From contig JAPPGG010000014.1 of NCBI GenBank assembly GCA_028875055.1, positions 134,722-198,721 of the forward strand: DNA of 64,000 bases, given 5' to 3'. Shown here piece after piece: positions 2,431-4,990 of this stretch (within the stretch, counting starts at the first letter, position 1; each line of letters opens with the position of its first letter). This DNA comes from Chloroflexota bacterium (lineage in GTDB: Bacteria; Chloroflexota; Dehalococcoidia; Lucifugimonadales; UBA3495). The notes beneath the pieces were generated by a model. It ran no database searches, had not been told where the DNA came from, and worked only from the letters and a program-made list of their open reading frames with translations. A program made the position numbers and the translations under genes.

Positions 2431-2507
2431 TTGCGGCAATTCGCTTACGAAATTTCCAACCCGGCCAATGGGCTATGGTTAAACCGGCAATCTGAATAGA
2501 GCAGGTG

Positions 2508-3863
2508 ATGAATTTGGCAGCGACCACAGCAATGGCCCCGCCTGCGGGCCAGGAAAAACGCACTAAAGACTCGGTGATGGCCACCACCGTCATCGGGGCT
2601 CACGCCTTTGAGCACTTCTACGCCCACACCATCCCGTTCCTCGCCGCCATCATTGCGGCAGACCTGGGTCTGGGCGCATTCCAGGTTGGGTTAATTGTCG
2701 TAGTCCGGTCGGTCTTCGGCGGCATTACCAGCACCGCCGGGGGCTTCCTGGTTGACCTTTTCCACCACCGCGTTTCGTGGGTGCTGTCCATCAGCGCCTT
2801 TAGCATCGGTGTTGGCTACCTGGTCATGTCCGTGGCGCCAACCTACGTGTTGATACTGGCAGCCCTGGCCCTGGGTTCCATGGGGAGCGCCCTCTGGCAC
2901 CCGCCAGCCCTGGGCCTGCTGGCCCGGCGTTTTCCGGAGCGCCGGGGCCTCTTCATTTCCATGCACCGGTCCATGGGCAGCATTGGCGACGTTCTGGGCC
3001 CCATGGTGGCCGGAGCGCTGGTAGCCGGCGCCCTGGCCTGGACCCTGAGCAGCGGGGGAGTGGAAAGTAACCTTTTCTCCTGGCAGATGCCCTGGGACGC
3101 CATAAGCTGGAGGTGGGTGCTGGGATTCAGCACGCCCATAATGTTCACCTCCAGCATCGTGATTTTCTTCCTGCTGCGGAATGCGGGAGGGGCCAAGCCC
3201 GAGGACTTCGACCTGGGCAAGCGCGTGCGGGAAAACTGGGCCGGCATGGTTGACGCCTTTAAGGGCACGGGGATGTGGGCCATCTTCACCGTTTCCGCAG
3301 TGCGTGGCATGGCCGACCGTTCCCTGGTTTTCCTTGTGCCCCTCTACCTGACCCAGGCTTTGGGAGTAGCGCCCTTCCAGGCCGCCTCCCACGTGGCATT
3401 GATGGTTGGCCCGGGCATTGTGGCTGGCCCCCTGATCGGCGCCCTGTCTGACAGAATCGGCCGCCGGGCCATCATCATATTCGTCATGGCCGTCACTACC
3501 GTCCTGACCCTGGCGATAATCTGGAGCGGCCAGCAAACCGGCGAGTACAATTACTGGATTACCCTGTTCGTTGCCATCTACGGCATTCTGAACTTCTCGG
3601 TAAATAACCTCACCCAGGCCGCAGCCGCCGACATTGCGGCTGGAAGACGGCTGGAATCCAGTTTCCTTGGCCTGATGTGGGGCAACAACACCTTCTTCGG
3701 CGCTGCCGCCGCCCTGGTAATTTTCGGTTCCGTGGAGTGGTTCGACCAGAACAACGCCGGCTGGCAGTACGGTTTCTACATTACCGCCGGGTTCTATTTC
3801 ATCGGGCTGTTGGCTTCCCTCCTGATCCCCGGTAAGCCCAGAGCGCTGGCCCAGCCTGCATAG
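2508..3863 (+). CDS. Major facilitator superfamily transporter
   Basis: About 450 residues with around 12 hydrophobic helices, typical of MFS permeases. The inter-helix MFS signature is visible as GALSDRIGRRAIIIF in the second half. Family members are proton- or gradient-driven efflux or uptake carriers in the cytoplasmic membrane; no substrate can be read from sequence. A GTG at 2505 directly precedes the ATG at 2508. I use the ATG, and the difference is a single residue. The gene is followed by a clear hairpin terminator at 3894-3917, so it is monocistronic. No adjacent regulator or enzyme suggests its cargo. Confidence 0.85.
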   Translation: MNLAATTAMAPPAGQEKRTKDSVMATTVIGAHAFEHFYAHTIPFLAAIIAADLGLGAFQVGLIVVVRSVFGGITSTAGGFLVDLFHHRVSWVLSISAFSIGVGYLVMSVAPTYVLILAALALGSMGSALWHPPALGLLARRFPERRGLFISMHRSMGSIGDVLGPMVAGALVAGALAWTLSSGGVESNLFSWQMPWDAISWRWVLGFSTPIMFTSSIVIFFLLRNAGGAKPEDFDLGKRVRENWAGMVDAFKGTGMWAIFTVSAVRGMADRSLVFLVPLYLTQALGVAPFQAASHVALMVGPGIVAGPLIGALSDRIGRRAIIIFVMAVTTVLTLAIIWSGQQTGEYNYWITLFVAIYGILNFSVNNLTQAAAADIAAGRRLESSFLGLMWGNNTFFGAAAALVIFGSVEWFDQNNAGWQYGFYITAGFYFIGLLASLLIPGKPRALAQPA

Positions 3864-3893
3864 GAAGGCCGCAAGAACAGGAAGAACTTCACA

Positions 3894-3917
3894 AGGGCGG
3901 GACTGGTTCCCGCCCTT
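3894..3917 (+). terminator. Rho-independent terminator after the MFS gene
   Basis: Perfect 8-bp GC-rich stem aagggcgg/ccgccctt with an 8-base loop, followed by the T-rich agtatttgtct. It isolates the downstream RNA gene from the transporter transcript. Confidence 0.7.
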
Positions 3918-3957: not shown

Positions 3958-3986
3958 TTGACAGCGGTATCGCAGCATGTTAGCCT
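3958..3986 (+). promoter_or_regulatory. Sigma70-like promoter of the candidate RNA gene
   Basis: Perfect -35 TTGACA (3958-3963), 17-bp spacer, -10 TAGCCT (3981-3986). The predicted transcription start is about 3993. It sits just after the transporter terminator and no plausible ORF follows, so it most likely drives a non-coding RNA. Confidence 0.5.
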
Positions 3987-3992
3987 GAATAT

Positions 3993-4312
3993 AGAACAAG
4001 AAGGGCATGAATGCCCGGACTGTTCCGAAATCCGGTAAGGAGGTTGGATATGGTTAAAGTTTTCGAACATTGCCATAAATGGATCTTCCCTTGTAGCGTC
4101 CCTGCCGGTTCGGAAAGGAGTGGATAACCCTTAAAGGGGATGCTTCAGAAGCGGCAGGGCTACAGAACGAAAAGCAAGTCCCGCGCAGATACCAAGCGAA
4201 CTGACATCCTTGGTGAGTTGCCTCAGGAAGGGTACATCCGGTAATAAAACCGGAATAGCGGGAATGCGAAGCGAAAGCAAATCAGGGCCCGGTAGGTTTA
4301 CCGGGCCCTGAT
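3993..4312 (+). ncRNA. Candidate orphan structured non-coding RNA, about 320 nt
   Basis: The segment lies between a promoter-like site and a 14-bp terminal hairpin and has no credible ORF. Several helices can be drawn directly: GGGCAT/ATGCCC (4003-4016); TATGG/CCATA closing an inner GTT-TTCG-AAC hairpin (4049-4077); a long helix TGTAG+CCCTGCCG (4092-4107) with CGGCAGGG+CTACA (4152-4164) enclosing CCCT/AGGG; ACCAAG/CTTGGT (4191-4214); TCCGGT/ACCGGA (4237-4254); and the terminal stem. The length would suit RNase P, tmRNA or a large regulatory RNA. However, the universal RNase P strings (such as the 3' acagaacccggc block) and the tmRNA TTCGA/CCA end are absent. The neighbour downstream is convergent, so it is not a leader of a gene. 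Identity is unknown to me. Confidence 0.5.
4281..4312. terminator. Strong 14-bp hairpin, probably a bidirectional terminator
   Basis: Perfect inverted repeat ATCAGGGCCCGGTA / TACCGGGCCCTGAT with a GGTT loop. Read on the plus strand it ends the candidate RNA, though no T tract follows. Read on the minus strand it lies 40 bases after mocA and is followed by atttgctttc, a better terminator context. Confidence 0.65.
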
Positions 4313-4351
4313 CGCTGTCGCGGGTTCCTCTTGTTTGTTGGTGACTGTGAA

Positions 4352-4990
4352 CTAGCCGGATTCACCCAGGGCAGCCCGATACTGCTCTGGAGTGTTGAGG
4401 TCCCACAATACCTCCCCCGTGTCCATTTCCACCCTCAGAATTCCTTCCTGGTGACGCCTCACCACCTCCCGTATTCCCTGGGTTGCTTCGTTAATGGCCC
4501 CAAGCTCTGTGATCAGGGCGGCATCGAACACCACCGGGTGACCACCCTTCCCGGCAAAGGCAGGAATGGTAATGAGCGGGCCGCTGGCACGGTGCTGGCG
4601 GAGCAGATATCCCACGGTTTCGGCGCTCCGGGGCTGGTCCACGTTCAACAACAGCAGGGTCCCGGGCAAGCGATCTCCCAGGGCGGCCAGTCCCGCCTTG
4701 ATTGATGTGGTTTTGCCCTGCAGATAGTGCGGGTTAAGGGTCCACTCCACACCCGGTTTCCCTTCTATCTCCGGCAGCAGCTCTTCGTAGCGGTGGCCGA
4801 GGACCACTATAACGCGGTCCACGCCCCCGCCGGACAATGCAGCTAACTGGTGGGAAAGCAGGGATTGGCCCTGCCATTGGAGCAGGGCCTTGAGTTCACC
4901 CATTCTTCGGGATTCTCCTGCTGCCAGGAGAATGGCTGCAGTTTCGGGCATAGTCGTTTCATCGCCCGGAGCGTGCGCTTCGTCGAGCAC
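4352..4990 (-). CDS. mocA: MobA/MocA-like molybdenum cofactor nucleotidyltransferase
   Basis: 212-residue NTP-transferase fold protein. The N-terminal nucleotide-binding loop reads LLAAGESRRMG followed by Lys (residues about 21-34), and a metal-binding block reads NVDQPR. MocA transfers CMP to molybdopterin to make the MCD form used by xanthine dehydrogenase-family hydroxylases; MobA uses GTP. The link to MocA comes from the adjacent xdhC. The GTG start at 4990 overlaps the xdhC stop (TAGTG). A second start, ATG at 4951, gives the conventional N-terminus MPETAAILLAAG and is as likely. It is the second gene of an xdhC-mocA pair and ends before a strong hairpin. Confidence 0.8.
   Translation of the reverse strand: MLDEAHAPGDETTMPETAAILLAAGESRRMGELKALLQWQGQSLLSHQLAALSGGGVDRVIVVLGHRYEELLPEIEGKPGVEWTLNPHYLQGKTTSIKAGLAALGDRLPGTLLLLNVDQPRSAETVGYLLRQHRASGPLITIPAFAGKGGHPVVFDAALITELGAINEATQGIREVVRRHQEGILRVEMDTGEVLWDLNTPEQYRAALGESG

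Follow-up and report, generated by a model that had tools for sequence, protein, structure and literature searches.

We describe a family of free-standing RNA genes in the Dehalococcoidia that join a conserved micro-ORF, predicted to be translated and set at a fixed spacing from the first conserved hairpin, to a conserved multi-branched RNA domain. In the window (the whole 64,000-nucleotide stretch of a Chloroflexota contig analysed here) the RNA gene lies on the plus strand at ~3990-4312, spans ~320 nt, and forms a transcription unit of its own, strongly folded, with a promoter in front and a hairpin at its end. That these genes form a family, and that it has this two-layer nature, translated and structured, is on comparative grounds close to certain. 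Our preferred reading, at a probability of roughly 0.45, is of a stand-alone translated and structured RNA in which a ribosome pause on the micro-ORF would control a trans-acting RNA domain; the pause-and-switch mechanism itself is a tentative proposal.

The unit opens with a sigma-70-type promoter on the plus strand (3958-3986; TTGACA at 3958-3963, a 17-nt spacer, TAGCCT at 3981-3986), which the earlier note, made from the sequence alone, had placed after a transporter terminator. Both parts of that reading are borne out: the terminator hairpin (3893-3917) of a plus-strand MFS transporter gene (2505-3863) precedes TTGACA, and a TTGACA-like/TAnnnT pair stands at a similar distance upstream of most homologues, scoring at least 9/12 in 36 of 50 non-redundant upstream regions and beating 95% of shuffles in 28 of the 50. 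In the window, the ~300 nt between promoter and final hairpin hold no listed gene. The next gene, a MobA-like NTP transferase gene (4352-4990) with an XdhC gene after it, is on the minus strand and convergent to the RNA gene, as had also been claimed.

The unit ends in a 14-bp hairpin (plus strand, 4281-4294/4299-4312). This had been called a perfect hairpin and the RNA's own terminator; the hairpin is indeed perfect, but it has no clear plus-strand U-tract (CGCTGTCGC), although homologues often end in a U-tract at this point. Because the plus-strand U-tract is weak and the minus strand T-rich, the hairpin probably, to judge from its flanks, serves as terminator for both the RNA and the convergent MobA-like gene, and may mainly terminate the latter. 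Within 4281-4330, the minus-strand 3′ side of the hairpin reads TTTGCTTTCGC.

An SD, a short ORF, a hairpin and a terminator are also the anatomy of leader-peptide attenuators, and one might read the RNA as a leader acting in cis on a downstream gene, either as a riboswitch or as a uORF attenuator. We consider this very unlikely, and already largely refuted: the window's next gene is convergent, the downstream gene is often convergent among the homologues as well, and no same-direction downstream gene is conserved among them, in keeping with the previous judgement that the RNA is not a leader. The RNA gene thus departs from uORF leaders, which control a downstream cistron on the same transcript, and shares with dual-function sRNAs its own promoter and end and the lack of a downstream cistron. 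BLASTN relatives come from the window's own genus and from two further genera of its family; like the window copy, they are flanked by the MFS gene on one side and MobA/XdhC on the other. Between lineages the neighbours vary, and those that are shared represent local synteny (MFS, MobA-like and XdhC genes in two families, the window's among them; in a further group, an upstream RarA-like ATPase); beyond this, no neighbour gene is conserved among the homologous loci. At one locus (L025, genome G027) an RNase HI-like ORF sits between the MFS gene and the RNA, with the RNA-MobA order retained.

Homologues occur in at least 77 of the 393 sampled Dehalococcoidia genomes, counting matches at E 1e-4 or better to either of two structured models, R2 (built from 21 sequences; matches in 36/393 class genomes) and R3 (built from ten distant members; 62/393); this count is a lower bound because the filters were strict and the E-values rough. 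R3, built without the window's subfamily, recovers the window copy (19 bits, E 0.009) and scores up to 36.5 bits on other members of that subfamily. Of 250 genomes from the order, 46 gave a match to R1, a sequence profile from seven sequences; a few of these matches, among the weakest, were judged false (L067, L070 and L071, where R2 has no match and no conserved ORF was seen). Single weak R2 or R3 matches outside the class were left out of the counts. We found no related DNA in plasmids and phages, and a sequence-pattern scan of viral contigs for the micro-ORF region gave no match. Tandem copies of the RNA, ~260-570 nt apart, occur in distant lineages (L034, L048, L078, and L115, which is on the same contig as L082), and in L048 both copies have their own promoter.

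On comparative evidence, the 5′ third of the RNA is a translated micro-ORF, and the RNA is not purely noncoding. A Shine-Dalgarno sequence, AAGGAGG (plus strand, 4037-4043), precedes 25 codons and a TAA stop on the plus strand at 4050-4127 (MVKVFEHCHKWIFPCSVPAGSERSG), and the encoded peptide has a conserved core, W-x-F-P (Trp 4080-4082, Phe 4086-4088, Pro 4089-4091). The earlier note had taken the segment to be coding-free; this is wrong because the SD-preceded ORF, kept across the class under codon-level selection, passes coding tests (codon-column permutations) in both subfamilies. Nearly all aligned homologues carry AAGGAGG or a GGAGG-type SD, a start codon (ATG, GTG or TTG, and ATT in one) and a short ORF. 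The exceptional ATT is at L022 (genome G002), where relatives carry ATG or GTG; its SD is intact. The peptide is conserved from the window's genus to Dehalococcoides; examples from homologues are MVSLITLNHQWHFPCKRPVGGALAK, MVRKYVINHAWHFPEEGPAGLRGGVT, MKIVLLCCWIFPRVSSSLVGSKG and MEIIAVLCRRKFPCSCSLLVRGGVG. The ORFs are 15-46 aa long: codons 1-15 are conserved, the C-terminal tails (0 to ~30 residues) are little conserved, and some ORFs stop at, or one or two residues from, WxFP.

In a set of 19 dereplicated sequences, the BLOSUM62 score per residue pair over codons 3-15 is 2.99, compared with 0.65 ± 0.33 when columns are permuted (0/1000), and the same codons have no stop in frame against 10 and 19 in the other frames. 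The distant subfamily (28 representatives), read in the frame set by a 7-nt distance from the Pro codon to the hairpin H1, gives 2.56 against 0.53 ± 0.32 (0/1000), again with no in-frame stop. The ORF is partly paired, in an SD helix, a start-codon hairpin and H1, and could be taken for an accident of conserved helices in a purely noncoding structured RNA. We regard this as the least credible reading of all, as coding selection is seen in loop codons 3-8 taken by themselves, which are unpaired and lie outside the helices (1.10 against -0.21 ± 0.35 permuted, 0/1000), and stops are lacking in frame while many occur in the other frames. A translated ORF under selection, as in dual-function sRNAs, is what the comparison of sequences indicates.

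The core does vary: some distant members have R, L or another residue in place of the W of WxFP, and FP is lost in two divergent copies, L092 and the second copy in L115 (LCRWDEDS). Four loci of family f2 (L055, L056, L063 and L064) have CCATGGGCATACG at the start and an ORF running MGIRAVYVLHHRWHFPC, with the start-codon hairpin apparently changed. Three of the peptides were searched against Pfam, NCBIfam and PHROGs, with no match. Ribosomal frameshifting at UUCCC was considered and dropped: in the window no long product results from the other frames, and in several members a zero-frame stop comes directly past the site.

The RNA is also strongly folded. The segment 3989-4315 is far more stable than its shuffles (z = -4.5), and remains so without the final hairpin (z = -3.3); in neither case was any shuffle as stable. 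A 5′ hairpin, H0 (plus strand, 3994-4025), is predicted by RNAalifold from seven close homologues with some two-sided changes, and was not traced in the distant subfamily. In a predicted helix, CUUCC (4085-4089), within the Phe-Pro codons of the ORF, is a possible partner of GGAGG (4039-4043); covariation says little about this helix because it is mostly invariant. The start-codon hairpin (plus strand, 4050-4076), described for subfamily 1, pairs the start codon with codons 8-9 (AUGGU 4050-4054/GCCAU 4072-4076) in 79% of cells, with compensatory types such as ATG/CAT to GTG/CAC. The TTCG-capped hairpin at 4059-4068, listed in the earlier note, lies inside this larger conserved hairpin.

Hairpin H1 (plus strand, 4099-4160) pairs 4100-4107 with 4152-4159, and its 5′ arm encodes V-P-A-G of the peptide. 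In A8, an alignment of 59 sequences, 92.6% of its cells are paired, with two-sided changes in 13 of 15 pairs; of the long stem first proposed at 4092-4107/4152-4164, this part is conserved and the outward extension is not. Downstream is a multi-branched 3′ domain (plus strand, 4174-4267) closed by H3 (4179-4184/4258-4263; outer 4174-4176/4265-4267), for which A8 helices 3 and 4 are 96.0% and 98.7% paired with many two-sided changes. Inside H3, the plus-strand hairpin region H4 (4191-4235) varies in length; it contains the ACCAAG/CTTGGT helix that the earlier note had listed, and A8 helix 5 is here 74.7% paired with two-sided changes in all three of its pairs. H5 (plus strand, 4237-4254) is the TCCGGT/ACCGGA helix, likewise recognised before and found at 4237-4242/4249-4254; it is 88.4% paired in A5, an alignment of 21 sequences (helix 4), and 90.8% and 92.5% paired in A8 (helices 6 and 7). 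In subfamily 1 (e.g., L047, L032 and L036), a pseudoknot could join CCUC ahead of H5 to GAGG past H3, and CCAU/AUGG at the candidate site in L037 suggests compensation.

Homologues with compensatory changes, the check that the earlier note had proposed, were found. In A5, 87.4% of cells pair against 79.9% when shuffled, with 79 double-change cells against 33 expected; in A8, 91.9% pair against 77.0%, with 409 double-change cells against 122 ± 18, an alignment that leans toward structure, having been fitted to its own model. Sliding A8 by 1-3 columns drops pairing from ~92% to 41-60%. The same plan emerges when RNAalifold is run on an independent MAFFT alignment of the distant subfamily; there, 22 of 38 pairs show two-sided changes. 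Common to both subfamilies are the SD helix, H1 after the ORF core, the H3 domain with H4 and H5, and the final hairpin.

No Rfam family accounts for this RNA. At the gathering threshold, Rfam 15 (4,227 families) has no match to the RNA gene in the window, permissive settings gave chance matches, and at 28 homologous loci Rfam found nothing except neighbouring tRNA/tmRNA-like genes, a result that agrees with the suggestion of a new RNA family. As had been supposed, the RNA is neither RNase P RNA nor tmRNA: the genome's copies lie elsewhere, at G000:C50:21144-21628 (222.6 bits, with none at the locus) and G000:C4:30342-30695 (148.8 bits), respectively. The idea of a diverged 6S RNA did not hold up, the fold being multi-branched and the 6S model RF00013, which matches 6 of 14 control genomes, having no match at the locus or in the whole genome. 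6S RNA was not found in this genome (G000) although RNase P RNA and tmRNA were.

Several known systems resemble the RNA in part. Like tmRNA (RF00023) it is a structured RNA with an internal short reading frame, but it differs in having an SD and a start codon and in lacking a tRNA-like domain; like 6S RNA (RF00013) it is a free-standing structured bacterial RNA, but it is multi-branched, matches no 6S model and carries an ORF that appears translated. It shares with the dual-function sRNAs SgrS/SgrT, SR1/SR1P and VcdRP a stand-alone transcript with a small translated ORF and a structured part, and differs in its fixed ORF-hairpin spacing and class-wide spread; homology to them is not expected. 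With arrest-peptide and uORF leaders (TnaC, SecM, ErmBL/ErmCL; the ilvB uORF) it has in common a short conserved peptide, a hairpin within reach of the ribosome and unconserved C-terminal tails, but no downstream gene follows for it to control, and stalling is here a proposal. To our knowledge W-x-F-P is no known arrest motif. As a kind, peptide-encoding structured RNA is already known from such examples. The rdhA motif (WRC-34-1), in the main text of PMC11109978, is a structured RNA mostly from Dehalococcoides, with 18 representatives, immediately upstream of reductive dehalogenase genes, whereas the present family is located elsewhere and spans the class; the main text of a 104-motif survey (PMC2864571) has no Dehalococcoidia motif. 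On comparison with the main text of PMC11109978, both the family and its geometry, a fixed ORF-hairpin spacing with no gene downstream, appear to be new.

The geometry suggests how the two layers may be coupled. A 7-nt spacer (plus strand, 4092-4098) separates the Pro codon from H1; the frame that this spacing fixes is open in 28 of 28 subfamily 2 representatives, and the spacer is gap-free to H1 in A5 (subfamily 1). H1 starts 7-8 nt past the Pro codon, at 7 nt in both subfamilies by alignment; because the Pro codon ends 7 nt before H1, the hairpin stands 10-11 nt from this codon, as does the first standard H1 pair of the window (4100-4159), 11 nt from the first nucleotide of the codon. Bacterial ribosomes are known to pause when a stem-loop lies 11-12 nt beyond the first nucleotide of the P site (PMC7282821), and the H1 distance of 10-11 nt is close to this value, not exactly equal. 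The fixed spacing could instead be a product of RNA architecture, given that the Phe-Pro codons immediately ahead of H1 are the pairing partner of the SD.

We suggest that translation starts are masked by the ORF's own codons, the SD by the Phe-Pro codons and the start codon by codons 8-9; that a loaded ribosome would make the short peptide; and that the nascent W-x-F-P chain and H1 at the ribosome entry would jointly slow or stop the ribosome near the Pro codon. A ribosome held there would keep the H1 5′ arm open and so alter the folding or action of the downstream RNA domain, with an output most likely in trans, via the folded RNA, because no gene follows in the same transcript. When pairing of the H3 5′ arm with the H1 3′ arm was tested directly as a sign of such a switch, the signal was weak: 90/5000 and 74/5000 permutations, not far below the 170/5000 of a control pair.

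If the peptide instead acts after release, the RNA would be an ordinary mRNA for a functional microprotein, its structured 3′ region stabilising the message or controlling translation. Strong amino-acid selection, a good SD in nearly all members, and an own promoter with a single small product are what such an mRNA would have, but its last residues and length (15-46 aa) are unconserved, some ORFs end at WxFP or one to two residues from it, the peptides have no Pfam, NCBIfam or PHROGs match, and the 3′ domain is conserved as deeply as the ORF, unusual for a plain 3′ UTR; we judge this unlikely. A peptide whose role is played while still in the ribosome fits the sequences because of the spacing to H1 and the conservation of the N-terminal part alone. 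Dual-function RNAs are a known class (PMC8672173, PMC5521070), and the free-standing unit, varied neighbourhoods, tandem copies and combination of an ORF with an RNA domain would suit one of the SgrS/SgrT, SR1 or VcdRP type, in which base-pairing of the 3′ domain with target mRNAs would not depend on translation and the peptide would have a separate role. We think this improbable, since the conserved 3′ domain is nearly all covarying paired helix with no constant unpaired seed and independent functions would not need the fixed ORF-H1 spacing. The pausing model can also be taken further, to a stand-alone ribosome sensor in which an arrest-type peptide and entry hairpin read the translation state or a small molecule and the folded 3′ domain relays the signal in trans, with no cis gene; this version is doubtful, and we know of no described family with such a design.

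Retention across the Dehalococcoidia means that the RNA gene is probably important to these organisms, yet neither Rfam nor the protein-family libraries searched contain it. Were the ribosome-coupled model true, the RNA would amount to a leader-peptide mechanism detached from its gene, a kind of design of which we know no example. Copies are present in D. lykanthroporepellens BL-DC-9T, D. loeffleri W and D. mccartyi 195T, the last species being a chlorinated-solvent-respiring bacterium used in the clean-up of chlorinated solvents. The D. mccartyi 195 copy, which makes the RNA gene directly testable in that organism, is a model match at 1,395,148-1,395,354 on the plus strand; it adjoins a prephenate-dehydratase-like gene, and its micro-ORF starts with TTG and reads (M)EKLQALLCTWFFPCIGSSLVGVRGS.
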